From positions 1-40,405 of the IMG/VR virus record IMGVR_UViG_3300012920_000093: 40,405 nt of DNA. The stretch is one strand, 5' to 3'. Shown here one piece after another: positions 3,197 through 39,526 of this stretch (position 1 is its first letter; the number at the start of each line of letters is the position of its first letter). The notes under the pieces were generated by a model. It did no database searches and was not told where the DNA came from. It saw nothing but the letters and a program-made list of their open reading frames with translations. The DNA is from a virus. Position numbers and translations under genes: made by a program.

Positions 3197-3772
3197 TTAA
3201 GATAAATAAGCTATTCCTTTATAATAAATATTTTGATCTCCATCTGCTTCGGGGTTTGTTGGTTTACGCCATATTAAATAATCTCCTTCGTGAAAGGGTC
3301 TAAAGGAAGTATAAGTAGTACTGCTAATATTACTACCAATAGTAGCATTAACAGTTACACCAGGACTAGTGTATTCTGTAGTCATTAAAGGTTGTTTAAG
3401 ATCCCAAACTCTTATAACAGGAATTTGTGGTGAACCAGGAAAAGGAAAAAATGGAACCCATATACATGTTTCTTCAAAAAAATGAACTGGTTTTGCGTCA
3501 CCTCCTTTATTATCTTTTCCTACCCAATATTGCATTTTACATGATTTAAATTTTCTCCAATTTACTGCAAAAAAGTTCCTAGTATTTGTGGCATCTGCAG
3601 GTGAACCTGTCCAATATTGGTAGTGGAAAAAAGATACCATAGTAGGATTTTGATTAGATGTAAAATCATCAGTCCTATTTCCATTCTCATCAAATGGAGA
3701 TTGTCTAGGGGCAACTTGTTCGTTTATGTAATCAAACGAAAGTCCTTTTATACCTGTACTTTGTCCTGGCAT
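3197..3772 (-). CDS. Hypothetical virion protein, 191 aa
   Basis: This 191-residue unknown starts with an ATG that overlaps the stop of the 1745-aa gene by one base (TAATG), so it is probably translated by re-initiation. It is rich in Trp, Phe, Tyr and Pro (for example CIWVPFFPFPGSPQIP near the middle), has two Cys residues about 30 apart, and ends KGIAYLS. The aromatic content and beta-like pattern fit a compact carbohydrate- or surface-binding domain. I see no motif that proves this. It is the first of three similarly sized unknowns between the collagen-like protein and the fibre gene at the left edge. Confidence 0.6.
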   Translation of the reverse strand: MPGQSTGIKGLSFDYINEQVAPRQSPFDENGNRTDDFTSNQNPTMVSFFHYQYWTGSPADATNTRNFFAVNWRKFKSCKMQYWVGKDNKGGDAKPVHFFEETCIWVPFFPFPGSPQIPVIRVWDLKQPLMTTEYTSPGVTVNATIGSNISSTTYTSFRPFHEGDYLIWRKPTNPEADGDQNIYYKGIAYLS

Positions 3773-6700
3773 TATAGTGTAAAGTATCTAAATCTGTGTT
3801 CAGCCGATGCTCCTAAAGTTTTGTAATGGTATACGTTTAATTGAAGGTCCCCACTACCATTTATACTAAATGTAGTTAAATTAGGATCTACTATAGCTAC
3901 ATTTAAAGGGGTTCTTACAACTTCATTCAGATTTATTCTTTCGTCATTGATTCCGCTTGACCCACTAGTCCAAGCTAAATCTGCTTCTATTACTTGAGTT
4001 CTTTGAACCCCAGTTCCAGCATCATCGTAATATATGGACCAATATAATTTCATGTAATGGAAATCATCTCCTATTGTAGGGGTACCATCGGTAACTCCAT
4101 CAAGGGAAGGAGGAATATCAAATGTTATAAAATTACTAATAGTTCCAGCTGTGGAAACTTCTTGAGTTTTTCCAGCAATATATTCATATGAGGAAATACT
4201 TTCGTTTTTTCTATCAAATCTAAAAGGTACACCACTAGCTAATACTGTAGTCTCACCAGATGATAAAAATGTAAATTCTCCTGTTTCTGCTACAGTATCA
4301 TTTTGTACGTATCTAAAATCACTACCACTTAAATTAGTATTATTTGTATCATTATTAGTGGGAGCAAACACTGCAAAATGGGTTCCTGAGTTTTGTTCGG
4401 GTTTCATTTCCCCTACAAAAATAGGGTCATATTCAAAACATATTATTACAGGATCAGTGTTGTTAAAAGTTCCATTTGAATCCAAATAGTCTACATCAAT
4501 GTCAAATTGAAAAGTACTACTATAAGTAGTCCCTATTTTACATCTAAAACGAGCATAAGTTACAGCAGTGGTGGAAGGTGTGTCACCCATATCTCTTACA
4601 GTGATTATTCCTCCTTCATAATTGTTTAAGAACTGGAAAATGTTAAAATCATCTGTAGAATCATTACTAAAACGATGTAATCTAATTTTAGTAGTACTAT
4701 CACTTGGAGCTGAAGTGTTGTTGTTTGAAGCGTTTAGGAAAAGTAATTGGAATGATGATGGTTGAGGGTTTGAGGTAGCTGTACTATAAATGTAATTAAA
4801 GCATATTGCACTTGCAGCGTCCCCGTTATCACCTTGAGCACCATTTTCACCTTGTGCTCCGTCTTCTCCTTGAGCACCGTTTTCACCTTGAGCGCCATTT
4901 TCACCTTGTGCTCCGTCTTCTCCTTGAGCACCGTCTTCGCCTTGTGCACCATTAAAACCTTGAGCACCGTCTTCACCCTGTGAACCATTAAAACCTTGAG
5001 CACCGTTTTCGCCTTGAGCACCGTCTTCGCCTTGTGCACCATTAAAACCTTGAGCACCGTTTTCACCTTGAGGGCCAGTTTCTCCATCTTCACCTTGTGC
5101 ACCAGTAAAACCTTGGGGACCATCATCTCCAATTCCTCCATTAGAACCTATTTGTCCTTGGATACCTTGAACAGATTCTCCTTGAATTCCCTGGATACCT
5201 TGTATGCCTTGGGTACCTTGAGTACCTTGAGCTCCTAAAAGTTCACTTGAGGGACATATTGTTGGGGAAGTATTGTTTATTAAATCAAACCCGGCTCCAC
5301 TAAAATGATCAACTGTAAATTGGATTACACCATTGCCTCCTAAAGTAGTAGAAGCAACATCAGTAACTGTGTAAGCATTGGTTCCTATAGTAATAATATA
5401 AGATCCTGGGAGACCAGCCGAAATGCCGGCATATATATTTGCGAGTTCACCGCTTGCAACGAAGGCGCCAAATGAAAAATATACTTCTGTTACTTGGTTT
5501 GATGCTACATTATCTGTAGTAAATGTTGTTCCTGTTAACTCAGTATCGTTAGTTTTATAAGTTGCAGTTATACATCCCTGAGTTAGTCCTGGGCTTCCTT
5601 GGATACCTTGGGCACCATCTTCTCCTTGGGGGCCAGTTTCACCATCTTCACCTTGTGCGCCATTGAAACCTTGTGTACCATTGAAACCTTGGGCACCGTC
5701 TTCTCCTTGTGCACCATTAAAACCTTGGGCACCGTCTTCTCCTTGTACACCATCTCCACCCTGTGAACCATTTTCACCTTGTGAGCCATTGAAACCTTGT
5801 GTGCCCTGAATACCTTGAGTGCCTTGGATAGATTCACCTTGGATACCTTGAATACCTTGGACACCTTGGGCACCCTGTATGCTTATTCCAACACCAGTTT
5901 GTCCCTGAGTACCTTGTATGCCTTGAATAGAAAGTCCTTGGATACCTTGGATACCTTGAATAGATTCACCTTGAATACCCTGAATGCCTTGAATTGAGGT
6001 ACCTTGTGGACCCTGAGATCCTGAAGAACCTTGAATGCCTTGACCTGCATTTTCCCCATCTATTCCTTGGAGACCTAAATTACCTTGAGGGCCTTGTGAT
6101 CCTGAAGAACCTTGAATACCTTGACCTGCATTAGACCCATCTTGTCCTTGTGCGCCATCAAAACCTTGGATTCCATCTTCGCCTTGTGCTCCGTCTTCAC
6201 CTTGTGCACCAATAAAACCCTGCGCACCATCTCCTCCATCTCCTCCTTCTGTACCTTGTGCTCCTTCTAATGAGTTAGTAGCGCATACTGTAGTAGAAGT
6301 ATTAATAGAATAACTAGTCCCAACACCTGATATATGTTGTACTGTAAATTCAAAAACATTAGTGCCTCCTACTGAATTTATATTAAGATCTGTAACATTA
6401 TATGAATGGGTGATACCACTTTGTTCTAAAGATATAGTGTATGTTCCAGGACTAGAATTATTAAAATTAGTAAACATATTACTAATTGCTGGGTTAGAGA
6501 TTCCAGCTGTAAGTGAAAGATATACAGTAGTTATACTAGCACCGACTGTTGTATTAGCAGATACTGTAGTAGAAGATGGAGTTAAATCTGAGGTGGATGC
6601 TTTATAAGTTGTTAAAATACATCCTTCTGTATCTCCGGTTTCACCTTGTGCACCATTAAAGCCTTGAGCACCATCTTCTCCTTGTACTCCGTCTTTTCCT

Positions 6701-9009
6701 TGTGCACCATTAAAACCTTGGGCACCATTTTCCCCTTGTGCGCCATTAAAGCCTTGTATTCCATCTTCACCTTGTGAACCATTAAAACCTTGCGTCCCAT
6801 CTTCACCTTGAGCTCCATTTTCCCCTTGAACCGATAGACCTTGTATACCCTGAATACCTTGAGTACCTTGGGTACCTTGTACGCCTTGTATACCTTGAAT
6901 ACCTTGGATACCTTGAGAACCAGTTGTGCCCTGGATTCCTATTCCAATACCAGTATTTCCTTGCAAACCTTGGGTGCCTTGTACACCTTGGGTTCCTTGA
7001 ATACCTTGAGTACCTTGAGGCCCTTGTATACCCTGGATGCCCTGAATACCTTGAGTGCCTTGAGTACCTTGCACTCCCTGGGTACCTTGGATTCCCTGAA
7101 TAGAAGGACCTTGAATTCCTTGGGATCCTGAAGAACCTTGGATACCCTGACCTGCATTAGCTCCATTCAATCCTTGTGATCCAGAGGGGCCTATTTCTCC
7201 TTGAATACCTTGTGCTGCTTGAGTGCCTTGTGTGCCTTGCACACCTTGAGTTCCTTGAATGCCTTGGGTACCTTGTATACCCTGGATGCCCTGAATGCCC
7301 TGAATGCCTTGTATGCCCTGGATACCTTGTGTGCCTTGTATACCTTGTATACCTTGTATACCTTGGGAACCTGTAAAACCCTGGGCTCCATCTTGGCCAA
7401 CTTGTCCTTGTGGTCCTTGGGATCCTGAAGCTCCTTGAATTCCAGTAAAGCCTTGAAGACCTACTCCAACATCACCTTGTATACCTTGTGATCCAGAGGG
7501 GCCTATTTCTCCTTGAATACCTTGTGCTGCTTGAGTGCCCTGTAAACCTTGAATACCTTGAGTACCTTGGGTACCTTGTACGCCTTGTATACCTTGAATA
7601 CCTTGGATACCTTGAAGACCTGTTCCGGTTTCTCCTATTTCTCCTTGGGTTCCCTGAGTACCCTGTATTCCTTGAGTACCTTGGGTACCTTGTACGCCTT
7701 GTATACCTTGGATGCCTTGGGATCCTGAGGGACCTATTTCTCCTTGGGTACCTAAATTACCTTGAATTCCCTGAGGGCCTTGAATACCTAATCCGGTTTG
7801 GCCTATTTCACCTTGAGAACCTGAAGAACCTTGAATGCCCTGAGTACCTTGGGCACCTTGTGTGCCTTGTATACCTTGGATTCCTTGAATGCCTTGAGCT
7901 GCAAATGCTCCATCTTGTCCTTGAGATCCTAAATTACCTTGTGGACCCTGTGATCCCGAAGAACCTTGGATACCTTGACCTGCATTAGCTCCATCTTGTC
8001 CCTGAAGTCCTAAATCTCCTTGTACACCTTGGATACCCTGAGATCCTATTGATCCAAACCCATCACTTCCTGTATAGTAAATTTGGCCAGATCCTGTATC
8101 AATAACTAATACATTGTTTACAGATGATGTAGAAGGCAAATTAGGGGCCTTAACTATAGATCCTGAAATTGTTAAATCGTCCTCAATTTGGGTTAACCCC
8201 GAACCAGATCCTATGTAAATATTTTGAGAACCAGAACCTATGTAAAGGCTTTGAAGAGGTTGGTTTAATAAATTAAATGTTCGGTAAGTTCCGGCACTAA
8301 ATAAAGAATGTTCTATAAATGTAAAGTTTTTTTCTCCTTTAAGACCATCAGCTTTTGCTCCTATAGTTTTATCACCTAAATTATTTAATTGGACTGCACC
8401 ATCAGCATTTCCCGAATCTAGTTCTAAAAATTTTCCATACATTCCAAGACTAGCTGAAATATAAGATCCAAAAGATTCTATAAAATCTGTAACTATAAAG
8501 TTTTGTCTGTGAACTGAACCTGCGGGGGTAATATAAAGTTCGGATTGGCCCGCATCAACTTGAATATTTAGGTTACCCGCACTATCAAGATAAAGTCCAG
8601 TATCTTGTGAAGAAGAAAATGTTAAGGAAGGGCTAGTAGAACTTCCATTACTTACAAATATTTTATCTATTACAACATCACCACTTCCACTTAAAGCTAT
8701 ATCGGCACTTGAACTTATAGCAATTGAAGAAGAAGACCCAGCTTCCATAGTAGTTTGTAAGTCTTCTATAGATCCTGTGCCACCAGTAATTAACAACCAA
8801 TTATCTCCATTATTTACATCACCTTGGTTTGTAGGAAGCGAGCCAGTATAGGCCCAAAGCTCAGCAGTACTTAATTGAAATACTAATAAACCAGGAAAAG
8901 TTTCAAACCAAGGATGGGCATATCTAGCAGACTGATCTGCCAATACAGTTCTATCATCAATGGGTTCTTGAGTTGATGGAGAGTATCCTTGAAATATTGT
9001 AACTGCCAT
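3772..9009 (-). CDS. Collagen-like fibre protein with two paralogous inserted domains, 1745 aa
   Basis: A very long virion fibre candidate. Residues 1-90 form a globular head (WFETFPGLLVFQLSTAELW), followed by a Ser-rich module at about 91-110 (SSSIAISSSADIALSGSG) shared with the 694-aa protein. A DTGSGQIYYTGS linker lies at about 300-316. Collagen-like Gly-X-Y repeats, mostly G-I-Q and G-T-Q and later G-A-Q/G-E-D/G-F-N, fill about 320-794, 914-1142 and 1260-1399. Two related domains of roughly 115-120 residues interrupt them (about 794-914 and 1142-1260). Each begins Q/E-GCI-TYK and has a second Cys near its end. Residues 1399-1745 form a globular C-terminal domain. Gly at every third position implies a trimeric triple helix; Gln in place of hydroxyproline is usual in phage collagen-like proteins. 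Receptor binding is inferred, not shown. Confidence 0.85.
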   Translation of the reverse strand: MAVTIFQGYSPSTQEPIDDRTVLADQSARYAHPWFETFPGLLVFQLSTAELWAYTGSLPTNQGDVNNGDNWLLITGGTGSIEDLQTTMEAGSSSSIAISSSADIALSGSGDVVIDKIFVSNGSSTSPSLTFSSSQDTGLYLDSAGNLNIQVDAGQSELYITPAGSVHRQNFIVTDFIESFGSYISASLGMYGKFLELDSGNADGAVQLNNLGDKTIGAKADGLKGEKNFTFIEHSLFSAGTYRTFNLLNQPLQSLYIGSGSQNIYIGSGSGLTQIEDDLTISGSIVKAPNLPSTSSVNNVLVIDTGSGQIYYTGSDGFGSIGSQGIQGVQGDLGLQGQDGANAGQGIQGSSGSQGPQGNLGSQGQDGAFAAQGIQGIQGIQGTQGAQGTQGIQGSSGSQGEIGQTGLGIQGPQGIQGNLGTQGEIGPSGSQGIQGIQGVQGTQGTQGIQGTQGTQGEIGETGTGLQGIQGIQGIQGVQGTQGTQGIQGLQGTQAAQGIQGEIGPSGSQGIQGDVGVGLQGFTGIQGASGSQGPQGQVGQDGAQGFTGSQGIQGIQGIQGTQGIQGIQGIQGIQGIQGIQGTQGIQGTQGVQGTQGTQAAQGIQGEIGPSGSQGLNGANAGQGIQGSSGSQGIQGPSIQGIQGTQGVQGTQGTQGIQGIQGIQGPQGTQGIQGTQGVQGTQGLQGNTGIGIGIQGTTGSQGIQGIQGIQGVQGTQGTQGIQGIQGLSVQGENGAQGEDGTQGFNGSQGEDGIQGFNGAQGENGAQGFNGAQGKDGVQGEDGAQGFNGAQGETGDTEGCILTTYKASTSDLTPSSTTVSANTTVGASITTVYLSLTAGISNPAISNMFTNFNNSSPGTYTISLEQSGITHSYNVTDLNINSVGGTNVFEFTVQHISGVGTSYSINTSTTVCATNSLEGAQGTEGGDGGDGAQGFIGAQGEDGAQGEDGIQGFDGAQGQDGSNAGQGIQGSSGSQGPQGNLGLQGIDGENAGQGIQGSSGSQGPQGTSIQGIQGIQGESIQGIQGIQGLSIQGIQGTQGQTGVGISIQGAQGVQGIQGIQGESIQGTQGIQGTQGFNGSQGENGSQGGDGVQGEDGAQGFNGAQGEDGAQGFNGTQGFNGAQGEDGETGPQGEDGAQGIQGSPGLTQGCITATYKTNDTELTGTTFTTDNVASNQVTEVYFSFGAFVASGELANIYAGISAGLPGSYIITIGTNAYTVTDVASTTLGGNGVIQFTVDHFSGAGFDLINNTSPTICPSSELLGAQGTQGTQGIQGIQGIQGESVQGIQGQIGSNGGIGDDGPQGFTGAQGEDGETGPQGENGAQGFNGAQGEDGAQGENGAQGFNGSQGEDGAQGFNGAQGEDGAQGEDGAQGENGAQGENGAQGEDGAQGENGAQGDNGDAASAICFNYIYSTATSNPQPSSFQLLFLNASNNNTSAPSDSTTKIRLHRFSNDSTDDFNIFQFLNNYEGGIITVRDMGDTPSTTAVTYARFRCKIGTTYSSTFQFDIDVDYLDSNGTFNNTDPVIICFEYDPIFVGEMKPEQNSGTHFAVFAPTNNDTNNTNLSGSDFRYVQNDTVAETGEFTFLSSGETTVLASGVPFRFDRKNESISSYEYIAGKTQEVSTAGTISNFITFDIPPSLDGVTDGTPTIGDDFHYMKLYWSIYYDDAGTGVQRTQVIEADLAWTSGSSGINDERINLNEVVRTPLNVAIVDPNLTTFSINGSGDLQLNVYHYKTLGASAEHRFRYFTL
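4815..8050 (-). repeat. Collagen-like 9-base-periodic repeat region
   Basis: The coding strand repeats GGN-X-CAA-type codons so that, on the plus strand, CCTTGNATA/CCTTGNGTA units recur every 9 bases. Two non-repetitive stretches (about 6270-6630 and 5230-5585) break it into three blocks. The left-hand blocks have a different unit, an 18-base or longer cassette encoding GAQGEDGAQGFN-like strings. Such repeats can expand or shrink by slippage or recombination, and they also produce long non-coding shadow frames on both strands. Confidence 0.9.
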
Positions 9010-17209: not shown

Positions 17210-19954
17210 TTATTGGATTCTGTAAGACCCCATTCCAAGGACTGTTCCTACTTTATTACCATCCATATTAATCACCCCACCTTTTTCTACTGATGTGATT
17301 AATCGTTCTAAAAGTTTTTCAACTTTAGTATTATCCATTGTAGTAGGGGGTGGTGGAAGTGGTTGTGGGGTTGATATAGTTGATGATACAACACTATCTG
17401 ACGGTGTAGTAACAGATGAATCATCAATAAATGGACGAGTTGCACCTATTATAATATCGTCTTTTCTAAATCTTTGGATGGGTTGACCTGGTCTAGAAAT
17501 AAAATCTGAGTTAGGTTGGGTAGAGGTTACGATTCCTTTGTCTTCAGCAAATTGTCGGGATTGTTCTAGTGCAAAGTCTGCTCTAGTTTGGTCTGTTACA
17601 TTCTTAAGAAGAGCAATAACACCTGCACCTATACCCCCTATTACAGCTCCAGGTATAGCACCAACTCCTAATCCTCCGACTCCTCCAGCTATTGCTCCTG
17701 CACCTGCCCCCGCAGCTATTGCCCCCAAAACATCAGTAGTATCATCCATACCTGTGGCTTGTTCTTGTAACTCAGTAGTCCTATTGAGGAATGCTTGGTC
17801 ACTTTCTGAAATATTATCTGCTTCTTGGGCTGCAGCAGCGATTCTTGATGCTTCCCCTTCTTCTTTAAAACCAGAAAATAAAGCACTTTCAGTAATACCC
17901 CTTAATATATCAGCTAAATCATCTAAAAGACCACCAGTCACTAATCTAGCAAAAGCTTCTTTAGCTTGCCCCAAAGCTTGGTTAAATTTTTGTGTAGCGT
18001 CTTGTTCTTGTTTTCTAGCATAGATTTGCTCACCTAATATGTCTCTAATTTGTTCTTCGCTCATTCCTGCTTTATCTGCAGCTAAACGAATTTCTTGGAG
18101 GCTTGCTTCTTTAATTTCTTCCCCTGTAAGGTCTAAAGTAATGCCCTGTTTTTTTAGTGCATTAACCTTTTTTAAGTATCTTTCTTGGAAAGCAGCTTGG
18201 TCTTCTTGTTGTTGGAGAGAATCAGCTAATTGATTAACTTCCATACCAATAGATTTAGCTAAAGCCTGTCGAGAAGCAACATTCATGTTTAGGAAATCCT
18301 GTTGAGTAATTCCTAATTTTCCTATTTCGTCTAATAAAGTAGCAGTATCACCTAATAAAGCTGCTTCTCTAGCTCTTTCTAAATTAAGGTCTCTACCTAA
18401 AAGAATTTCAGCTTCTAATTCATTTTGAATAGATTGTTCAAAATCTAATAAACTATTGGCTATGTTTTCTGTGTCTTGTAAATTAAGACCTAATAATTTA
18501 GCTTGATAAACGGCAGCAGCTATTTCTTTAACACTACCTCCAAAATTAGCTCTTAAATTTCCTGATATTTTTGAAGCTTCTTCTATAAGACCTACAACAT
18601 CAGCCATTAAGCCAGCTTCTGTACTTAATAAACCTACTTGACCAAATATTTCTTGAGTATATTCTTGTAAAGGTTGACCTAATCTTTCGGAATCTACAAA
18701 CAATCTAGTAGCAGCTTCTGCTGAAAGGCCAAATTGTTTTTGTAGCATTGCTGTTTCAGCAACATTTAAAGATGTTTGTCTACCAAAATCTTGGGCTAAA
18801 TTTAGTTGAAAACCTAACTGTGAGTTTATATCACCTAATGTTTTTTCAAAATCAGCTGCTAAAATAGTAAGGTTACCTTGTTCTTTAGCAAGTTCATTAA
18901 ATTCACCTACAATTCCAGGAATAATAGTACTACGTAATTCTCGGGCTGCTTCTCTACTGATAAGAAGATTTCTAGAAAAATCAGCTGTTGCTTTAGAAGC
19001 TTCAAACATTGATTTAACAAAAAATTTAATAGTATCAACTAAAGTAATTACTAAACTAATAGGACCTAATGCTTTTTTGATTATAGGACCTAATGCTTTA
19101 AATCCTGCCTTAAGAGGTGATATAGCACCTCCTGCTGCTTTAGTTATTCCTAAAGCATTTGCTTTTTGAGAAGCGATTGCACCTGTAAGTAATTTTCCGT
19201 TTTTATCTACTAATTTTCCTTCTAATCCTAAAGATTTTATCCTATCAGCCGTTAAACCTTTTCCTGTTTTAAGAGCTTCTAAATTTGCTTTGCCTATTTT
19301 TTTAGTAGTACCAAAGTTTTTTAGATTAAATGCAGCTTGTTCTCTAGATGCTTCTGCTGCTTCTTGGAATGGTCCTGAAAACCTACTAAGTCCTGGGATT
19401 TTAGAAAAAATATCGCTTAAACCTCCAAATGATTTGACTGAGAGGTTATTTGCAACTTCTTTAGATTGGTCCTTAATAGTTTCTAATTGCTGAGATAATT
19501 TAGCTGAGGCTTTGATTTGCAAGCCAATTTCTCTTTTAATATCAGCATCAATTTGAGCATTATCACTCAATTGTTCATTTTTGAGTGATTGTAATGATAA
19601 TATTTTCTTTTCTAAAGATTCCTGGTCTTTTAGAATTCTTTCTTCAGTTTTTTGTAAACCAAGTTCGTCTTCTATTACAGTATAAGATCTTTCAGAAATA
19701 CTGACTATTTCATTAGATAATTTTTTTATTAGAGATTTTGAAGTAGTATTTCTTGTAAGTACTTTAGCTTGGTCTGCAAGAATAGTATTATTTTCTCTAA
19801 TAGAAATTGCTAACTGTTCATCTGTACCTACTCTTCTTTGTAAAGTATCAAGAATAGCTTGACCTAAACGTTGTTCTTCCTTTAAACCTTCATTTTTTTG
19901 GTTTTGAATATTAACGCCTTTTTGAGCTTGTTTATTTCTTTCTTCTTGAGACAT
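17210..19954 (-). CDS. Tail tape-measure protein, 914 aa
   Basis: This sets tail length and is later ejected with the DNA. The 914 residues are mostly helical. The N-terminal 180 residues are coiled-coil-like, rich in Gln, Glu, Lys and Leu (EERILKDQESLEKKILSL). A hydrophobic stretch around 285-320 (IIKKALGPISLVITLVDTIK) and a Gly/Ala-rich hydrophobic stretch around 755-800 (AIAAGAGAGAIAGGVGGLG) resemble membrane-inserting segments of tape measures. The C-terminus is short and polar. Position after the tail tube and the frameshifted chaperone gene, and before the baseplate genes, is the classic one. At about 1.5 angstrom per helical residue, a tail near 130-140 nm would be expected, which is an inference. 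It is longer than T4 gp29. Confidence 0.88.
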   Translation of the reverse strand: MSQEERNKQAQKGVNIQNQKNEGLKEEQRLGQAILDTLQRRVGTDEQLAISIRENNTILADQAKVLTRNTTSKSLIKKLSNEIVSISERSYTVIEDELGLQKTEERILKDQESLEKKILSLQSLKNEQLSDNAQIDADIKREIGLQIKASAKLSQQLETIKDQSKEVANNLSVKSFGGLSDIFSKIPGLSRFSGPFQEAAEASREQAAFNLKNFGTTKKIGKANLEALKTGKGLTADRIKSLGLEGKLVDKNGKLLTGAIASQKANALGITKAAGGAISPLKAGFKALGPIIKKALGPISLVITLVDTIKFFVKSMFEASKATADFSRNLLISREAARELRSTIIPGIVGEFNELAKEQGNLTILAADFEKTLGDINSQLGFQLNLAQDFGRQTSLNVAETAMLQKQFGLSAEAATRLFVDSERLGQPLQEYTQEIFGQVGLLSTEAGLMADVVGLIEEASKISGNLRANFGGSVKEIAAAVYQAKLLGLNLQDTENIANSLLDFEQSIQNELEAEILLGRDLNLERAREAALLGDTATLLDEIGKLGITQQDFLNMNVASRQALAKSIGMEVNQLADSLQQQEDQAAFQERYLKKVNALKKQGITLDLTGEEIKEASLQEIRLAADKAGMSEEQIRDILGEQIYARKQEQDATQKFNQALGQAKEAFARLVTGGLLDDLADILRGITESALFSGFKEEGEASRIAAAAQEADNISESDQAFLNRTTELQEQATGMDDTTDVLGAIAAGAGAGAIAGGVGGLGVGAIPGAVIGGIGAGVIALLKNVTDQTRADFALEQSRQFAEDKGIVTSTQPNSDFISRPGQPIQRFRKDDIIIGATRPFIDDSSVTTPSDSVVSSTISTPQPLPPPPTTMDNTKVEKLLERLITSVEKGGVINMDGNKVGTVLGMGSYRIQ

Positions 19955-19979: not shown

Positions 19980-20000
19980 AAGCATCACTTTTGTGATGCC
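19980..20000 (-). terminator. Weak hairpin terminator after the frameshifted tail-assembly gene
   Basis: The sense strand reads GCATCAC, loop AAAA, GTGATGC (7 perfect pairs, 19982-19988 with 19993-19999), followed by TTTCAATATTT. The hairpin contains the stop codon of the -1 frame (19985-19987). The U-run is broken, so it may be a leaky terminator or a 3'-end stabiliser. Confidence 0.5.
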
Positions 20001-21006
20001 TTCATATTATAATTAGGTGCAGTTATTTTTTTACGAGGAGTATCAGGAATTTTACTTCTATCAGGATTTGCTAAATCAATTTGAGTATTGTTAGAAGTAG
20101 AAGACTTTTTATTTCTTGCTTCACGTTCTTGATCATACCAATCTTTTATTTTTTTAAAAGTAAATTTTCTTAGCCAAATAGGCATTGAATAAACTGTGGT
20201 CCAATCGTACCCCCCTTTTCCATGAAAAACAATTTCATGAATTTGGTTAAAAACCGAAGCTCTGTATTGGGCTAATTCTTTTAGAGATCCGGCCAGAAAA
20301 AATTTAATGTGATAGGGATATCAATTGTTTCTTCTCCCGTGTTGTAAGTTAAGTCTACATCAGGAGAGATTTCTTTAATATACAAACGAAGTGCTCTAGA
20401 GTCTTGTGCTAACAAATAATTGTCTACAAAATCTTTGATTTCATTTTTATCTTTAGATCCGTTTACAGCTACTATAGTTCGTTTTAGTCTAGTTGTAATT
20501 TCACCTCCATTATTTACATTTGCCTTTTTTAATCCTTCAAGTTCTTTACTTATTAAGTCTGTATCTTTTTCTGTTAGTAACTTAAACTCGATTTCTGTTT
20601 GAGATTTAGGTAAAGTAAACTTAATAGTACCCTCACTGGTTAAGATAGAATCATCAAAAGGTTTATTGTCAATTGTTGATAAGTCAATACTATAATTTTT
20701 ATCTTTATAACCAAAAGAATAATCTTTACCATAACCCAAAACTCGAGCTGCTACTAAAAGAGCATTTTTATCACCTGGTATTATATCTGAAATATTAAAC
20801 TTATTCATAGTAAGGGATTCCATAAGTTTATCTAAAACTATACCTTTATCAATAAGATTTTGGTTGGTTAATATATCTTCTTCTTTAGCAGTCATATACT
20901 TCATTTCAACTGTACCAGAAGATAAGGGATGATCTGCGGGGTAAACTTTACCTTTTGATGGTAATTCTATTACCTCTGTTGGGAACTTAAATTTTTCGTC
21001 ACTCAT
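19985..21006 (-). CDS. Tail-assembly chaperone, frameshifted long form (gp26-like plus -1 extension), about 340 aa
   Basis: Predicted product of a -1 ribosomal frameshift at 20299-20305. Ribosomes that slip leave the gp26-like frame seven codons before its end and read 104 further codons to the stop at 19985. The extension contains HGKGGYDWTTVYSMPIWLRK and then a basic, polar tail ending MKASQK. In the -1 frame there is no stop from 20317 to 19988. There is also no ATG before 20185, although the HGKGGYDW segment, which I recall as conserved among relatives, lies upstream of that ATG. Between tube and tape-measure genes, a short/long pair of this kind is the G/GT chaperone of many tailed phages. 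T4 has separate genes 26 and 51 in this position. The frameshift is inferred from sequence only. Confidence 0.72.
20254..20305 (-). other. Programmed -1 ribosomal frameshift signal
   Basis: Sense-strand order: slippery heptamer A AAT TTT (20305-20299), overlapped by a second one, T TTT TTC (20302-20296). After a 6-base spacer TTCTGG comes the arm CCGGATCTCT (20292-20283), a 19-base loop, and the arm AGAGCTTCGG (20263-20254). The arms pair at 9 of 10 positions, including one G-T wobble and one T/C mismatch. Heptamer form, spacer and stem fit the standard bacterial -1 signal. The 0-frame stop TAA (20281-20283) follows shortly after. Confidence 0.75.
20281..21006 (-). CDS. gp26-like baseplate hub / tail-assembly protein, short form, 241 aa
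   Basis: Unshifted product ending FWPDL. I place the start at ATG 21006 (MSDEKFKFPTEVIELPSKG) and not at 21057, because the longer version would begin inside the upstream terminator hairpin and the AATATTTATA element. The N-terminus (FPTEVIELPSKGKVYPADHP) and the following YMTAKEEDILTNQNL resemble T4 gp26-type baseplate proteins. Acidic and Lys-rich helices fill the rest. There are no membrane segments. In the G/GT scheme this would be the abundant short chaperone that coats the tape measure during tail assembly. Its last seven codons overlap the frameshift signal. Family assignment is good; the chaperone role is inferred from position and the signal. Confidence 0.8.
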   Translation of the reverse strand: MSDEKFKFPTEVIELPSKGKVYPADHPLSSGTVEMKYMTAKEEDILTNQNLIDKGIVLDKLMESLTMNKFNISDIIPGDKNALLVAARVLGYGKDYSFGYKDKNYSIDLSTIDNKPFDDSILTSEGTIKFTLPKSQTEIEFKLLTEKDTDLISKELEGLKKANVNNGGEITTRLKRTIVAVNGSKDKNEIKDFVDNYLLAQDSRALRLYIKEISPDVDLTYNTGEETIDIPITLNFFWPDL

Positions 21007-21091: not shown

Positions 21092-21580
21092 TTAGAAGTT
21101 TAGTACGCAATAATCCATTTCAAGGGTCATTGTAATCGTTTGTGGTGTATCAATGTTATCATAATCGTAATCACCAAATGTAACATTTGTAATGATAGCA
21201 CCTTTAATAACCCATTCAGAAACTATGTCACCTACAGGGCCAACAGCATTAAGAGTAAGGTCTTTTTTATAAAAATCAGAGTAACCATCTCTACCTGTTA
21301 CTGATTCATGGCCTAAACGAATCCATTCCATTGCAATTTGAGCTCCTGAAGGAGTAATAGGATCATGGAGGGTTAATGTCACTGGGTCCCAAACTGTTTT
21401 ACCTTTAATCTTACGATAAGTGTTAATCCAGTTAATGGTAATTGAGTTTTGAGTAAGGCCAATTGCGCTTAATCCTCTTACCATATAAGTAGGAACTCCA
21501 TCCATATATAGTATGAACCGATTTTGTTGTTTGGGTTCAAATGCTGTGAAAAAAATTTCGTTTGAATCTAATACTGCCAT
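21092..21580 (-). CDS. Tail tube protein, gp19-like, 162 aa
   Basis: This forms the inner tube through which DNA passes. The 162 residues match T4 gp19-type tubes in length and pattern: FEPKQQNRFILYMDGVPTYM near the N-terminus, TVWDPVTLTLHDPI in the middle, GAIITNVTFGDYDYD and then TITMTLEMDYCVLNF at the end. The order sheath, tube, assembly protein, tape measure supports the call. It has its own AATATTTATA element and is followed by a strong terminator, as expected for a very highly expressed protein. Confidence 0.93.
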   Translation of the reverse strand: MAVLDSNEIFFTAFEPKQQNRFILYMDGVPTYMVRGLSAIGLTQNSITINWINTYRKIKGKTVWDPVTLTLHDPITPSGAQIAMEWIRLGHESVTGRDGYSDFYKKDLTLNAVGPVGDIVSEWVIKGAIITNVTFGDYDYDNIDTPQTITMTLEMDYCVLNF

Positions 21581-21637: not shown

Positions 21638-23362
21638 TTATTCAGATGGGAACGTAGCTCCAGTAGGCATGACATTGAAATTCAAGATTACAAATTCAGC
21701 TGTCTTAGTTGGTTGTAAGAACACCTGTCCTACTAATTCATTTCTATCAATTACTGCTGGGGTGTTAATTGATTCATCCATAACAACCTTAAACGCATAT
21801 AAACCTTGTCTCTGTTGAACTGATTCGAGGTAAGGATTCACAATTGCTAAGAAATTATTTCTTGTAGCTTGTGTATTTGCCTCAAATACTACATTACCGG
21901 ATTGTTGATCTAAGAATTGCTTAATGTTAATTAATAATCTTCTAACATTAATACGATCAAGTGCCGAGGCTTTAGTTTGAAGGGTTTTCTGACCAAATAC
22001 TACTACGCCTGCTCCAGGGAATGCTGTGATAGGATTAACTTTTGCTTCGTATAAAGTATCTCTGTCAGCTTTAGGTAAAGTTCTTTGAGTTCTTATTACG
22101 GTTGGTAATGAACCTCTATTTAATCCCGCCGGAGCGAACCAAGGCTCACCTACTCTGTCATTATAAGCGTATACTCCAGGAATAAACGTTGAAGGTGGCG
22201 CCCAAGTTGCTTTACCTGTTGCTGGGTCATTAGACATCAACCATGGGTAATAGGAAGCTGCATATGAATTATTAATAGTTTTAGCTTGAGCAGATACTGT
22301 TTGAACTGAAGCTGAGTAGTAACCTAAATCAACTAATGCAATAGTATCACCTCTTTCTTTTGAATTGTTTAATAAGATATTTAGCTGTTCACTATCATTT
22401 TCATAAACAAGACCAGGAGCTGCTATTGAAGTATACTTATATTGAGTATCATTCAATAAGTAGAAAGAAGAAGTAAAATCATTTGCTGCTAATCCTTCAA
22501 TATTATCATTTATAATATCTTTACTGAAAAGAGCTCCGGCTGAAATTGTACCTTGACCTCCAGTAAATCCTTGTGATTGTGATCCTGTATTAGTGTTTGA
22601 AGGAACACTACCAGAGTAAGCACCTACTCTTACGTTACCTTCACTATCAGCATAATGAGGAGTATCAGTTATGCTAGAAACAAATACATATTTACTAACA
22701 TTTGGGTATTCACCATTTATTTGAACATAGCTATCTACTCCTTCTCCTTCTATTGTAGAGAATTGAGTACCTACAGCTTTACCAATGTAATTAGGATCAT
22801 ATGGATCTAATGTTAGATTATTAAATTGCTCAAGGATAATTTTATTATTATCATCATCGTCTCCTCTTCTAATAACAAGAGTAAATGTACCAGATCCAGT
22901 ATTAGAATTAGTAATTTCATATCTTAAATTAGTAGAAGTTCCTGAGCCGAATAGACCAGTTGAGCTAGCGGCTGTAGTAGCACTGTTTTGGTCTGCACCT
23001 TCGGCTCTAGTATTTAATATAAACGAGGGAGTAGCACCTATGCTAGCGCTAACGTCAGCGGTTGCGGAGGTGTAATTCCCACTTACTGCTCTACTAACTA
23101 AAAGAGCACCTCCACCATTATTAAAAAAGCTAAAGGCGGCTTGAGCCAAGAAAGAAGGAAAAGTACCACTACTACTTACAATTTCACCTCCAAATTTAGC
23201 CACAAAATCACCATATGATGTTACTAAAGTAGGAATCCTTACAGGTCCTTTTGCAGTAGAACCAACAATAGCAGCACCTGCTACTGTAATTCCTTCGGGG
23301 ATAAAAGATTGGTCTGTTTCGTTGATATAAATACCAGGAGAGACGATGTTGTTATTTGCCAT
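21638..23362 (-). CDS. Tail sheath protein, gp18-like, 574 aa
   Basis: This is the contractile sheath subunit. The N-terminus IVSPGIYINETDQSF and the following VAGAAIVGSTAKGPVRIPTL are the usual start of T4-type sheath proteins. The C-terminal third is typical too: ALDRINVRRLLINIKQFLDQ, then LVGQVFLQPTKTAEFVILNF. The 574 residues are shorter than T4 gp18 (about 660), mainly in the variable middle, which is Ser/Asn/Gly-rich and probably surface exposed. The sheath makes this a contractile-tailed phage. Its gene lies between the coiled-coil protein and the tube gene, each with its own upstream element. Confidence 0.96.
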   Translation of the reverse strand: MANNNIVSPGIYINETDQSFIPEGITVAGAAIVGSTAKGPVRIPTLVTSYGDFVAKFGGEIVSSSGTFPSFLAQAAFSFFNNGGGALLVSRAVSGNYTSATADVSASIGATPSFILNTRAEGADQNSATTAASSTGLFGSGTSTNLRYEITNSNTGSGTFTLVIRRGDDDDNNKIILEQFNNLTLDPYDPNYIGKAVGTQFSTIEGEGVDSYVQINGEYPNVSKYVFVSSITDTPHYADSEGNVRVGAYSGSVPSNTNTGSQSQGFTGGQGTISAGALFSKDIINDNIEGLAANDFTSSFYLLNDTQYKYTSIAAPGLVYENDSEQLNILLNNSKERGDTIALVDLGYYSASVQTVSAQAKTINNSYAASYYPWLMSNDPATGKATWAPPSTFIPGVYAYNDRVGEPWFAPAGLNRGSLPTVIRTQRTLPKADRDTLYEAKVNPITAFPGAGVVVFGQKTLQTKASALDRINVRRLLINIKQFLDQQSGNVVFEANTQATRNNFLAIVNPYLESVQQRQGLYAFKVVMDESINTPAVIDRNELVGQVFLQPTKTAEFVILNFNVMPTGATFPSE

Positions 23363-33859: not shown

Positions 33860-36800
33860 TTATCCAAGTGAAATTCTAATTTCATCTGAGTTAGAACCTG
33901 TTCTGTATAATTGGCCTATCACACTTGGATCGGATGTTGGTAATGAACCTGTGTCTAATAAAATTGCTGTATCTGAACTGTCATGTGACCAAATTTCAAG
34001 GACGTTGCTTCTATTAGTTTGACCAGCACCATCACCAATTCCAAAGTTTATGAAGTATCCTGATCCTAAGTTGTTACCCATAGCGCTACTACCCGTAGCA
34101 TTATACTGACCTACTAGGAAGGAACTTCTATTAGCAACTCCTAAATTATTAGAATCTAAGTACTTACCTACTACAAATTCGTGGCTGTATCTAGCTTTAC
34201 TACCTTGGCCAAAAGCTACACTGTAGTCACCTCCTGCTTCTGTACTTTCACCACTTGCAAATGAGAAATCACCTGAAGCAACTGTGGAAGCACCTTGAGC
34301 ATGTGCTGAACGGCCTGAAGCTGTGGTTCCTTCTCCTTCTGCGTGGGCAAAATTACCTGTAGCTTTTGTATATTCACCTTCTGCGTGAGCTCCATAAGAT
34401 GAAGCTGTAGTAAATCTACCTTCGGCGTGTGCTGCTGGGTGGGTTACTAATGTATTGACACCCTCAGCGTGACCAGCTACTGCTTGGAAGTAAGTATCTC
34501 CAACTTGGACTCCTGTAACTTTAGAACCAGAACCTTCAGCATGTGCGAATTGAGCTGATGCTGAAGTAAAGGCACCTTCTGCGTGGGATTGAGATCCTGA
34601 AGCAAAAGTTTCTCTACCTTCTGCGTGAGCATAATTTCCACTAGCTGTAGTTGCTTGACCTTCTGCGTGAGCTGATGTTCCTGATGCTAGAGTATCTTCA
34701 CCTTCTGCGTGAGCATTTAATCCACTAGCTACAGTGGTAAGACCTTCAGCGTGGGAATTAGTACCACTAGCTAATGTACTGCTACCTTCTGCGTGTGATC
34801 CAGCTCCAGTAGCTCTGGAAGATACACCTTCTGCGTGAGCGTAATTAGCTGATGCTGTAGTAAGAGAACCTTCAGCGTGTGCAGAGAATCCTGATGCTAG
34901 GGTATAGAAACCTTCAGCGTGTGCTGTGTATCCTGAAGCAAGAGTTGATTCACCTTCAGCGTGTGCTGAAATCCCTGAGGCAACGGTTGAGGCACCTTCG
35001 GCGTGTGAGTAATTACCAGTTGCTGATGATCCAGAACCTTCAGCGTGGGCATAATCAGCTGCTGCTATTGTAGTCCAACCTTCTGCGTGGGATGAAGCTC
35101 CTGAAGCAGATGTGAATTTACCTTCAGCATGGGATGCAATTCCGGTAGCTTTAGTTTCTGCACCTTCTGCGTGAGCATAATTAGCGGATGCTAAAGTGTT
35201 TTGACCTTCTGCGTGAGCTGATGTTCCTGATGCTGTAGTACCTTCACCTTCTGCGTGGGCATTATCACCGCTAGCTTCCGTGGTAAGACCTTCAGCGTGA
35301 GCATTATTACCAGAAGCAACAGTAAGACTACCTTCTGCGTGTGATCCAGCTCCAGTAGCTTTAGTGGACATACCTTCAGCGTGTGAATAGTTACCAGATC
35401 CGGTAGCAAGCGAACCTTCAGCGTGTGCAGAGAATCCTGATGCTAGGGTAGCGAATCCTTCGGCGTGAGCTGCTGTTCCTGATGCTAATGATGAAGAACC
35501 TTCAGCATGAGAACCTGTACCTTCTGCTACAGTTTGGCTACCTTCAGCGTGACCATAATTTCCTTTTACTTGAGTAAAGTATCCTTCAGCGTGACCACCT
35601 GTTCCTTTACTACCGTCAACACCTACTACTGAACCATATCCTTCAGCGTGGGATATACCTGCTGAAGCTGTGGTTTGGTAACCTTCAGCGTGTGAATCAT
35701 TGCCTGATGCTAATGTTTCATTACCTTCAGCGTGAGCATTTAATCCACTAGCTACTGTTAATCTACCTTCTGAGTGGGCATATGTTGCAGTAGCAGTTGA
35801 AGAACCTTCAGCGTGTGAGTAATTACCTGTAGCTCTAGAGTAGTCACCTTCTGCGTGGGAGTACATACCTGAAGCAGATGTGAATCTTCCTTCTGCGTGG
35901 GAACCTGTGCTCCAAGCTGTTGATTTCCAACCTTCTGCGTGAGAGAAATCTGAAGATGCTGTGGTAAACATACCCTCAGCGTGTGAGCTTGCCCCTTGAG
36001 CAAGAGTACCATACCCCTCAGCGTGAGAATTAACACCAACTGCTTTAGTAAGAAGACCTTCTGCGTGAGAGTATAGACCTGAAGCAGAAGTAAATGATCC
36101 TTCTGCGTGAGAAGCAGCTCCATTTGCTCTAGTTTGTTCACCTTCAGCGTGGGAATTGTTTCCAAATGCTTTAGTAGAAAGACCTTCTGCGTGTGAATTG
36201 TCTCCTAAAGCAATAGCATTAACACCTTCGGCGTGAGATGCATATCCTTGAGCTAAAGTACCATCACCTTCTGCGTGAGAAGCAAAACCATTAGCATCGG
36301 TATTAGAACCTTCTGCGTGAGCACTTTCTCCTGAGGCGGTTGTAAACCAACCTTCAGCGTGGGATTGGTTACCTGTAGTTAAGGTTCTGTAACCCTGAGC
36401 GTGTGAATAAGAACCACTAGCTCTAGTTAAAGAACCTTCTGCGTGTGATCCAGCTCCTATAGCTCTAGTAGCACCACCTTCTGCGTGTGAACCCTCACCT
36501 TCAGCTGTTGAGTAAAGACCTTCAGCGTGTGAACTTTCACCTTCAGCTATTGTAGTGTTACCTTCTGCGTGTGAGTGATTAGCAAGAGCTTTGGTTTGCG
36601 TGCCTTCGGAGTGAGCAGCACTACCACTAGCAACAGTAGTATTACCTTCGGCATGAGAATATTGACCCATAGCTTTGTTGGATTTACCAAATGCTTGAGC
36701 TGCTTCTCCTGTTACTTGGTTTAAGTAACCCATAGCTGCTGCGTTATCCGCTCTTAAAATGTTACCATATCCCTGTCCAAGGGTATTACGGAACGCCATA

Positions 36801-39526
36801 TCATTAAATTCACCTACTGCTAACACATTGTCAGCACTGCAGCTAATAATGTTACCCAAGTCTGGGGCTACTCCTGTAGGATCACTTCCGTTAAATGGGA
36901 AGAGAGCACCTGATAAAGGACCTACACTTAAGTAACCTCCATTAGCTATAACTTCACCACCAGCATTAACACCTAAGCTAAAGCCAGTTTCGTTACAATC
37001 TTCTACAGTTAATCCAGGGTAGAATTCATTTCCTAATTGGAAGAAAGCTGAATTTGATGGGATCAAACCGCTGTTGTCCTGTACTCCACCTACTACGTAA
37101 GAAGTATCTAAAGTAACAGGTCCAGTCCATGGAGCTAAAGTCCAAGTACTAGTATGTCTAATACCCCATTTTTGAACAAATCTATTGTAAATAGTATTAC
37201 TTGGAGTAATATTTGGACCATTTATTAATATACCTTCATCTGGGGATTTTCCTGCATTGTAGGCAGCTATTGGGCTTCCTGCAAACCAATTCATATCATT
37301 ACAAGCACCCCATCCTACTTCTCCAACTGGGTCGTATCCAATTTCTATCCAAACTCTGTCTCCATAATCAAAGTGAAGAGCACCTCCTTCAATAAAGTTA
37401 GAAACATTTTCAAAGCCTGGCATGTTAGTACAAATAAGAGTTGTTTCTCTCATATTCATGTACCGTCTACCAGTGACGGGGTGATCACTCATATCTGATT
37501 GGCTCATCAATAATTGTTGATGCTCAACATATCCCGCTTGGTGAGGTTGTATATTTTCTAAGGTACTTTGTAGGTCAATCATATCCGTAGCGAAAGGACT
37601 CGACGTTTCATTACCCAAGGAATATATATTTACGTTACGTGTAACTTCAGCTACAGTTGAAATTTCACCAGCAGTATTTTGTTTTTTAACGTAAACTGTG
37701 TATCTTTCTATTTCAACAGGTGGATTCAGGATTTGATCTAATCCTAAACCTCTTTGGAAAATAGCTAATTTTAAATTAGCATAAAAGCTATAATCACCAC
37801 TGGCTTGGACAACCCAACCATTCTCTAGGTCACCACTGCCTGACATTTTCCAGCCAAGGCCATTATTTCCTGCTATTGAGGTATTAAAATTACCAGTTTC
37901 ATCGTATGCTGTAAGTGGAGAATAATCACCTGCGTTTTCATTGACTACAGGGTTATAAGTCTGGTCAATAGTCCATGGAACTGATAATAAGGCACCATTT
38001 GTGTTTGGGCTTGACATTGTTCTCCAGTCTGCTAATGTTATACCATATAAAGGGTTACGAAATTCAGCATTACTAAAACCACCATATGGGTTTAGGTTTC
38101 CAGCAGAGTGCCAAGAAGAAGTTGCTTGAATATTAGCAATAGTTGAAGGTTGTGGTGGACGTGCCTGCCATTCTTCTACAAACGGTGCTTCTGAAGTGTA
38201 ACCATTACGAACTCTTAACTGTAAAGGTAAGTGGGTAATAGCTTCAATAGGTTGGTTGAAGTATGTAAGAGTAGGTTTACCTTCTCCCGAACTAGTTACA
38301 GCATAGCTGCTACCAAATTCTTCAGAGGAAATGTGCCATTCAGCTTCAAGTGTTCCTGTTACAAAACCACTTGAGAAGTTGGCTGGGTCGATTACAAACG
38401 TTCTAGTACCATTAGGGAATGTAAAGACATCATGGAAAGTACCTTCGTCCCACGAATCTTCTGGAGAGATAGGAGCTGGTAACTGGACTAATTCAACTTC
38501 GATTTTTTGGTTGTTAGCAGAACTAGCTGAGAAGGGAATAGAGAATGAACAAGTTGTTGTAAATCCTGTGGCATACGGAGCTTGTTCTTCAATAAAGATA
38601 TAATCTCCATTATTGTATCTAGCTTTACCTACATCACCATCATTATTACCGTTAGGAGTAACCCAAACTATTGCTGAAAGTTCGTCTTGGGAATCTAAAA
38701 AGAAAGGAGCAGGGTTTTCGTTACCATTAAATGAGGTTACTTTAGCTAAGCCAAGTGATCTGGTAGTGTTCATTTCACCCTCATACAATCCATCTGGAGT
38801 AGGGAGGGGTGGTTGAGATAAGCCTCTTTTACCATAATTTATCATGGAACCCGAAATGGCAAATCTTTTATTTTCCATGACAACGGTATCACTAGCATTT
38901 AATAATGTAGTAGAACCTGTTTTACCAACTGTAGCAACACCATTAGCGTTTCCAGGAGCATACTGGCTGGCTCCTTCTTGGAATGCAGCTAATTCTTGGT
39001 TTCCTGCTGTAATAGTAACTCTATCTCTATTAGCACCGTCACGATCAAATAATATATAAGTACTATCTGTGTTGTCTGTTTCAGAAATAATAGCATCAGT
39101 TTCATTATAAGTACTTACAGTTATATCAGTACCTCCTCTAGTTATAGTTCTAGGAGTTGTAGGAATAGGCTTACCACCTTTTATGTTATCAACATCCTGT
39201 TTACTCATAGAAGAAATTACTCCTCCAGGACCTACAAATTTAAGAGATCCAGTAGAAACATAAAGATCTCTCCAGGCTGCCGTTGGGCTACCTAAATCAA
39301 AAGATGAGCTGATTTTTCCACTAGTGTTAGGAATAATACTACCTGAAACGTTTATAGTTCCAGAAATATGAAGGTCTTCGTCTGGGAGAGATGAAGTAGT
39401 TCCCAATTGAATGTTAACAACATCATATAATTCGTTAACAGAAGTTTTAGTGTCATTAAAAATAGATGCGCTTACAGCACTCAATGAGCCCGAGTCTGCT
39501 CTATTTTCCCAAGTAATTTTTGCCAT
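33860..39526 (-). CDS. Giant YadA-head-like repeat virion protein, 1888 aa
   Basis: Residues 1-120 form the N-terminal module shared with the 303-aa protein (MAKITWENRADSGS, SSFDLGSPTAAWRDLYVSTG, SKQDVDNIKGGK). Residues of about 120-930 are a large non-repetitive beta-rich region with Trp and Asn-rich stretches (MNWFAGSPIAAYNAGKSPDE). Residues of about 946-1779 hold roughly 55-60 repeats of 14 residues (SHAEGxxTxASGxx), the YadA/Hep_Hag head pattern. The C-terminus carries LPTSDPSVIGQLYRTGS and RISLG. A trimeric beta-roll rod with this many turns would be long and stiff, comparable to a tail or head fibre. The middle region may be an enzyme or binding domain, but I recognise no motif. A strong terminator follows; an AATATTTATC element precedes the gene. 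Confidence 0.8.
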   Translation of the reverse strand: MAKITWENRADSGSLSAVSASIFNDTKTSVNELYDVVNIQLGTTSSLPDEDLHISGTINVSGSIIPNTSGKISSSFDLGSPTAAWRDLYVSTGSLKFVGPGGVISSMSKQDVDNIKGGKPIPTTPRTITRGGTDITVSTYNETDAIISETDNTDSTYILFDRDGANRDRVTITAGNQELAAFQEGASQYAPGNANGVATVGKTGSTTLLNASDTVVMENKRFAISGSMINYGKRGLSQPPLPTPDGLYEGEMNTTRSLGLAKVTSFNGNENPAPFFLDSQDELSAIVWVTPNGNNDGDVGKARYNNGDYIFIEEQAPYATGFTTTCSFSIPFSASSANNQKIEVELVQLPAPISPEDSWDEGTFHDVFTFPNGTRTFVIDPANFSSGFVTGTLEAEWHISSEEFGSSYAVTSSGEGKPTLTYFNQPIEAITHLPLQLRVRNGYTSEAPFVEEWQARPPQPSTIANIQATSSWHSAGNLNPYGGFSNAEFRNPLYGITLADWRTMSSPNTNGALLSVPWTIDQTYNPVVNENAGDYSPLTAYDETGNFNTSIAGNNGLGWKMSGSGDLENGWVVQASGDYSFYANLKLAIFQRGLGLDQILNPPVEIERYTVYVKKQNTAGEISTVAEVTRNVNIYSLGNETSSPFATDMIDLQSTLENIQPHQAGYVEHQQLLMSQSDMSDHPVTGRRYMNMRETTLICTNMPGFENVSNFIEGGALHFDYGDRVWIEIGYDPVGEVGWGACNDMNWFAGSPIAAYNAGKSPDEGILINGPNITPSNTIYNRFVQKWGIRHTSTWTLAPWTGPVTLDTSYVVGGVQDNSGLIPSNSAFFQLGNEFYPGLTVEDCNETGFSLGVNAGGEVIANGGYLSVGPLSGALFPFNGSDPTGVAPDLGNIISCSADNVLAVGEFNDMAFRNTLGQGYGNILRADNAAAMGYLNQVTGEAAQAFGKSNKAMGQYSHAEGNTTVASGSAAHSEGTQTKALANHSHAEGNTTIAEGESSHAEGLYSTAEGEGSHAEGGATRAIGAGSHAEGSLTRASGSYSHAQGYRTLTTGNQSHAEGWFTTASGESAHAEGSNTDANGFASHAEGDGTLAQGYASHAEGVNAIALGDNSHAEGLSTKAFGNNSHAEGEQTRANGAASHAEGSFTSASGLYSHAEGLLTKAVGVNSHAEGYGTLAQGASSHAEGMFTTASSDFSHAEGWKSTAWSTGSHAEGRFTSASGMYSHAEGDYSRATGNYSHAEGSSTATATYAHSEGRLTVASGLNAHAEGNETLASGNDSHAEGYQTTASAGISHAEGYGSVVGVDGSKGTGGHAEGYFTQVKGNYGHAEGSQTVAEGTGSHAEGSSSLASGTAAHAEGFATLASGFSAHAEGSLATGSGNYSHAEGMSTKATGAGSHAEGSLTVASGNNAHAEGLTTEASGDNAHAEGEGTTASGTSAHAEGQNTLASANYAHAEGAETKATGIASHAEGKFTSASGASSHAEGWTTIAAADYAHAEGSGSSATGNYSHAEGASTVASGISAHAEGESTLASGYTAHAEGFYTLASGFSAHAEGSLTTASANYAHAEGVSSRATGAGSHAEGSSTLASGTNSHAEGLTTVASGLNAHAEGEDTLASGTSAHAEGQATTASGNYAHAEGRETFASGSQSHAEGAFTSASAQFAHAEGSGSKVTGVQVGDTYFQAVAGHAEGVNTLVTHPAAHAEGRFTTASSYGAHAEGEYTKATGNFAHAEGEGTTASGRSAHAQGASTVASGDFSFASGESTEAGGDYSVAFGQGSKARYSHEFVVGKYLDSNNLGVANRSSFLVGQYNATGSSAMGNNLGSGYFINFGIGDGAGQTNRSNVLEIWSHDSSDTAILLDTGSLPTSDPSVIGQLYRTGSNSDEIRISLG
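34190..36690 (-). repeat. 42-base tandem coding repeats (SHAEG type), long array
   Basis: About 55-60 imperfect 42-base units. Plus-strand CCTTCTGCGTG/CCTTCAGCGTG recurs with that period. Spacers carry coding variation, so this is not a CRISPR array. Two longer units (around 34450-34530 and 35590-35640) insert extra residues between repeats. Confidence 0.9.

Follow-up and report, generated by a model that had tools for sequence, protein, structure and literature searches.

A predicted -1 frameshift joining a gp26-like protein to a gp51-type module in an uncultured phage, and the module's change of frame among relatives

Gene order and slippery site in the window

The stretch of DNA analysed here (hereafter the window; 40,405 nt) is a 40-kb linear fragment of an uncultured virus of bacteria, and all of its features discussed below lie on the minus strand. 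Genes are arranged in the order sheath, tube, chaperone pair and tape measure, the last being assigned from its position. Specifically, a tail sheath gene (21638..23362; phrog_23, E 4.5e-72) and a tail tube gene (21092..21580; phrog_4542 tail tube, E 9.5e-23) are found upstream of a gene for a 241-aa gp26-like protein (20281..21006), and a 914-aa open reading frame (17210..19954) occupies the tape-measure position. The only family match of this 914-aa frame is phrog_13877, of unknown function, and its positional counterpart in Flavobacterium phage immuto carries the annotation tail tape measure protein. Thus, with the tape measure taken by position, a short gene and its extended form sit between the tube and tape-measure genes, as do the G/GT tail chaperones. 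Elsewhere, the window encodes a 1745-aa protein with 13 collagen-repeat stretches (3772-9009; PF01391, E 9e-101) that is probably a tail fibre, a 1888-aa protein with a YadA-head repeat (33860-39526; PF05658, E 1.5e-6), and a PhoH-like protein (39573-40271; phrog_170, E 2.2e-68). Genome contigs scanned with gp26 as the query contained no relatives, and hence gave no clue to the host.

The gp26-like gene, by homology the putative short chaperone (TAC-N, or "G"), ends in the zero frame with ...ACA TTA AAT TTT TTC TGG CCG GAT CTC TAA (C-terminus ...LNFFWPDL*; stop codon at 20281..20283, within the stem/loop region described below). Two overlapping slippery heptamers, AAATTTT (20299..20305) and TTTTTTC (20296..20302), lie in this end, both in X XXY YYZ zero-frame phase, and a slip on either would produce the identical junction NFF|LAGS. 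An open -1 frame of 111 codons spans 20320 to 19985, and from the slip site onwards contains a 103-codon C-terminal module with its stop (19985..20296; TAC-C or "T", the gp51 C-terminal module), so that the predicted fusion product has 237 + 103 = 340 aa. Its first ATG is at 20185, 111 nt past the slip site, and neither GTG nor TTG was found ahead of that position. The initial annotation, made from the letters of the sequence, had described both heptamers and a -1 frame open for more than 300 bases and free of ATG for about the first 110, and these features are indeed present. Such an open frame is unlikely by chance (P 1.5e-4, shuffles), and the slippery decamer by itself is not rare (1 seen, 0.70 expected per window).

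A 6-nt spacer, TTCTGG, separates AAATTTT from a predicted stem and falls within the 5-9 nt range for a 3' structure. The arms CCGGATCTCT (5' arm, 20283..20292) and AGAGCTTCGG (3' arm, 20254..20263) form 9 of 10 pairs, one of them G-U, around a 19-nt loop, as had also been annotated. By dinucleotide shuffles, this stem is weak and not unusual (-10 kcal/mol, z -0.86). Judged from the sequences compared, the decisive support for the signal is comparative evidence, rather than the motif or the stem taken singly.

Conservation of the site, the shifted frame and the stem

A scan for the pattern AAYTTTTTCTGGCCNGA recovered further -1 members of the window's family; it fixed TTC, the second Phe codon (hence not evidence), and fixed neither AAT nor the base before it, with AAC also allowed. 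The family's -1 members comprise 13 distinct sites, including the window's, and 15 distinct modules. AAATTTT is kept at 13/13 of these sites, where the codon before AAT is TTA, CTA, ATA, GTA or GCA, invariably ending in A, and where the AAC permitted by the scan is absent. Because the preceding codon varies but always ends in A, and because AAC does not occur, selection appears to act on the A-AAT-TTT heptamer at the DNA level.

The shifted frame is itself constrained. Between the slip site and the first ATG (35 codons), dN/dS is about 0.2 for the window against two relatives (L001 and L195), which indicates purifying selection in the part of the -1 frame upstream of 20185, where the initial annotation had proposed looking for amino-acid conservation. 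Other comparisons of the same segment gave pN of 0.21-0.37 and pS of 0.69-0.94; their synonymous sites are saturated or nearly so, but they agree. The overlap is thus conserved and the shifted frame is under coding constraint, as in canonical -1 frameshifting. A gp26 relative with a -1 open frame behind GGT TTT TTC TTC was also seen in a 595-kb phage (L088; LR756511).

For the stem, the 54 nt after the site were folded and compared with synonymous-codon shuffles that preserve the module protein. By this measure, the -1 sites of the window's family fold beyond the shuffles (mean z -1.86, n=13; p 0.02 for the window), as does the cyanophage-type set described below (mean z -2.70, n=79), whereas sites with the module in the +1 frame have no excess folding (mean z -0.31, n=51). 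The position of the 3' arm differs between the window-type and L182-type relatives, so that pairing is kept between subgroups without the pairs being shared column by column. Nucleotide-column covariation in the window-type stem was dropped as a line of evidence because of this shift.

A similar arrangement is found in phages with a short gp51. Cyanophages P-SSM2 and S-RIM8, Vibrio phage ValKK3 and two rhizobiophages have a gp51-type C-terminal piece that follows gp26 at a T run and is shifted to frame -1. In this cyanophage-type set, TTTTTTC and the -1 downstream frame are kept at 80/80 distinct sites, and the preceding codon (AGT, AAT, TCT, GCT or GAT) ends in T before TTT TTC in 80/80; the set was mostly gathered with a query beginning FFR, and is therefore blind to the preceding codon but not to the site residues. 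Column pair 13-27 of its stem is TA in 41, AT in 20 and GC in 8 cases, and rhizobiophage RL38J1, outside the 80-site set, has TTTTTTG. At most sites (e.g., L090, 5690-5725) an ATG lies just past the gp26 stop, inside the 5' arm of the stem, and the module might therefore be made both as a fusion and alone. The short gp51 of Kyanoviridae and Schizotequatrovirus, and its rhizobiophage counterpart, hence resemble the window in having the module -1 to gp26 at a T run, with TTTTTTC and a 3' stem in the cyanophage-type set, but their annotation is that of small genes in their own right, and some have a different predicted stem. Cyanophage and vibriophage gp51 were previously found to match the C-terminus of T4 gp51 only, frameshifting being unmentioned (Sullivan 2010; PMC3037559).

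Relationship to T4 gp26 and gp51

The gp26-like protein matches phrog_150 (PHROG 150, baseplate hub; E 1e-7), and PF12322 (T4_baseplate) is matched by 19/31 aligned family members, the window's own copy being below Pfam detection. Its AlphaFold model (pLDDT 88.8) retrieved predicted T4-like baseplate hub assembly proteins of other phages from BFVD (1e-18 to 1e-5). A PDB fold search with this model found nothing significant (the HK97 chaperone 2ob9 ranked third, E 4.5), and a profile search of PDB sequences with both alignments found no match. The module, with a predicted fold of mean pLDDT 72 and pTM 0.44, had no match in Pfam and PHROG scans. Its relationship to the C-terminus of T4 gp51 is marginal when compared directly (E 0.006; 1/100 shuffled controls as high) and is instead made through the cyanophage-type module, which is homologous to both the T4 gp51 C-terminus (E 2.8e-10) and the window-type module (E 3.8e-5), with 0/100 shuffled controls as high in either case.

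Pfam T4_baseplate and PHROG 150 each include both T4 gp26 and T4 gp51, and gp51 has about 48 extra C-terminal residues. On sequence comparison, the N-terminal part of gp51 is a paralogue of gp26, which makes gp51 a full gp26 paralogue with the module fused on. We therefore equate the window's downstream frame with the C-terminal module of T4 gp51, such that the short gp26-like protein would correspond to G and the predicted frameshift product to a gp51-like GT. The initial annotation had suggested that this lineage makes the gp26/gp51 pair by frameshifting; the -1 shift, the identity of the family and the G/GT scheme stand, but gp51 is more than the downstream frame, as it also contains the gp26 paralogue. 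The same annotation had placed T4 genes 26 and 51 between tube and tape-measure genes, which is incorrect, as they are divergent neighbours beside 27-28-29. The likeness between T4 and the window accordingly lies in the proteins, the zero-frame protein belonging to the gp26/gp51 family and the shifted frame being the gp51 C-terminal extension module, and the difference lies in the genes: T4 has two divergent ones, a short gene and a full-length fusion, and the window has one gene with a frameshift.

In a gp26 tree, the T4-type gp26 and gp51 copies form one clade (98) beside ValKK3 (84). This is suggestive, given the long branches, of an origin of the T4-type pair by duplication within Straboviridae. 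In phage RB43 (L094), the gp51-type gene and the next gene, which was taken as gp26 by assumption, are in tandem on one strand, unlike the divergent T4 pair.

Direction of the shift, alternative explanations and implications

In most relatives of the window the module lies +1 to gp26; this arrangement, at AAC-TTT-TTT-T and without a stem, was seen in more than 100 of them. Among the 80 viral contigs nearest by module, 79 are +1 and one is -1 (L001), and a second sample, collected with gp26 as the query, is +1 at 55/56 readable loci, the remaining one having a broken frame. The cultured relatives, Flavobacterium phage immuto and Microcystis phage Mel-JY01, are both +1, and more distant +1 examples are RM378, SP-15 and GXN1. 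The heptamer is kept at the -1 sites and not in most relatives, but in the latter the downstream frame has moved along with it, which represents a change of direction rather than a loss.

The 52 distinct +1 sites read, in the zero frame, AAC (33) or another codon, TTT, then TTT, CTT or CTA, then TGG, TTC or TAC, then CCT (52) and mostly GAC (47). In four relatives (L002, L003, L005 and L007), a stop upstream in the +1 frame means that the shift must fall within the T run or the few codons that follow. The TTT CTT T and TTT CTA T sites point to +1 rather than -2 reading in these relatives; for the +1 group, a -2 shift and transcriptional slippage were both rejected, as neither readily fits such sites. 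The +1 shift probably occurs by tRNA-Phe re-pairing one base forward on TTT-Y, by which the module of these relatives would be reached. Two +1 loci (L267 and L268) still carry A-AAT-TTT (as A-AAT-TTT-TTT-T), so the heptamer alone does not dictate direction, and they are possible intermediates between the two directions. At +1 sites (e.g., L027, L040 and L046), the Gly codon three codons upstream is GGG in 20/33 cases versus 64/701 (9%) elsewhere in these genes, counts that come from related and not independent sequences; it could perhaps act as a Shine-Dalgarno-like stimulator. The only annotation of the +1 module in immuto (L082, 6724-6961) is a 37-aa hypothetical protein (QQO92150.1) whose start is an internal ATG, which leaves most of the module unannotated.

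In a tree of 79 family proteins, the nine -1 rows require three changes of direction, at least two of them forced by well-supported branches, with changes counted without polarity and sampling uneven, as most -1 rows came from the pattern scan. Holding the -1 rows as one clade was rejected (p-AU 0.002). The window falls in a ten-row clade (99) of eight -1 rows and two +1 rows (L242 and L243), and another -1 row, L206, is apart from it, grouped with the +1 rows L004 and L247 (99). The row closest to the window in the tree is the +1 L242 (64% identity), which reads CTT AAC TTT TTT TGG CCT GAC where the window reads TTA AAT TTT TTC TGG CCG GAT. These comparisons suggest, with good though not strong confidence, that the direction of frameshifting is evolutionarily labile within one homologous pair: around the same NFF codons, it would be +1 (AAC TTT TTT T, no stem) in most relatives and -1 (A AAT TTT TTC with a stem) in at least two separate lineages including the window's, a small change in linker length moving the frame of the module and the slip site being rebuilt to match.

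For the window itself, programmed -1 frameshifting very probably yields two tail assembly chaperones from one start, the short gp26-like protein and a 340-aa gp51-like protein. This reading starts from what the sequences show: a signal that is conserved, a -1 frame under selection, and homology of both parts to gp26/gp51. From these we infer that, and in what proportion, the fusion is produced and, from gene order and homology, that the proteins act as chaperones. Mechanistically, most ribosomes would terminate at 20281 and release the 241-aa protein, while a minority, delayed by the 3' stem, would shift one base backwards on A-AAT-TTT-TTC and continue into the module, making the counterpart of T4 gp51. 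If the lambda G/GT pair is a guide, the short form would coat the tape-measure protein, and the module of the long form would recruit tube subunits.

Several alternatives bear on how the module is expressed. It might be a separate gene with its own start, by re-initiation after the gp26 stop or from a non-standard codon, as is suggested by the many cyanophage-type sites with an ATG 5 nt after the first base of the gp26 stop codon and an annotated separate gp51, and by ValKK3, where stop and start overlap as TAATG. We consider this improbable, since the window's -1 frame lacks ATG, GTG and TTG before 20185 and yet its 35 preceding codons are under purifying selection, and since a nearby ATG is absent in 6/80 cyanophage-type sites, compared with TTTTTTC in 80/80. 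Slightly less probable still is transcriptional slippage, in which a T run (6 to 8 at almost all sites) would alter mRNA length and ribosomes would then read a single frame. Six T followed by C is a short run for such slippage, some relatives retain the frame relation with an interrupted run (TTT CTT T, TTT CTA T), and slippage would need neither heptamer phase, nor a fixed base ahead of the T run, nor stems at -1 sites only. By far the least credible explanation is that the T run was miscalled or misassembled, or that the gene is a pseudogene; the window is a single metagenome contig with a homopolymer, but the identical -1 arrangement recurs in other contigs of differing sequence, dN/dS is about 0.2, and the two parts occupy different frames in cultured relatives too.

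The remaining alternative accepts the frameshifting and concerns its products, which could be parts of the baseplate hub rather than assembly chaperones. The names favor it, gp26 homologues being called baseplate hub in PHROGs and GenBank, and some T4 genetics puts gp26 in the hub (PMC3004832). Though the least improbable of the alternatives, it is unlikely in our view, as paired short and long forms encoded between tube and tape measure follow the G/GT pattern, and as Vladimirov, Gautam and Davidson (2022), according to later papers citing them, identified gp26/gp51 as the tail chaperones of T4-like phages (PMC10274946, PMC12846349).

Programmed frameshifting of tail chaperones thus remains the preferred reading, and it can be set beside known systems. 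G/GT frameshifting is widespread in long-tailed phages, with a 2016 review listing -1, -2 and +1 variants and excepting T4 (PMC5009743). Later work cites Vladimirov et al. (2022) for two further points: in some T4-like phages a short gene is accompanied by a long, fused one (PMC10274946), and the short genes of T4-like phages contain poly-T slippery sequences (PMC12846349). Insofar as these citations represent that study, the frameshift inference was largely anticipated, and the link between the T4 and lambda schemes drawn in the initial annotation is right but not new (PMC10274946, PMC12846349). The window resembles lambda in gene order, in a -1 shift late in the short gene and in the low yield expected of the long form (PMC5009743), and differs in its slippery site, with no sequence homology found. 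The +1-placed relatives are like HSTV-2 and Mu, which use +1 and -2 chaperone shifts, in direction (PMC5009743), but those phages have a different protein family, and the window's family has both directions at one homologous site.

The novel elements are the lineage itself, the +1 sites and their codon signature, and a shift direction that has switched repeatedly. A large and mostly uncultured lineage, with immuto and Mel-JY01 as its cultured members, joins the phages with frameshifting tail chaperones, and annotations would be corrected accordingly, the module now being entered as a hypothetical protein of 37 aa in immuto and as small, separate gp51 genes in cyanophages. The lineage also fits the T4 two-gene arrangement being derived. 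Overall, with matched sites of both directions built on the same codons, it offers a natural experiment on what sets the direction of frameshifting and how sites switch between directions.
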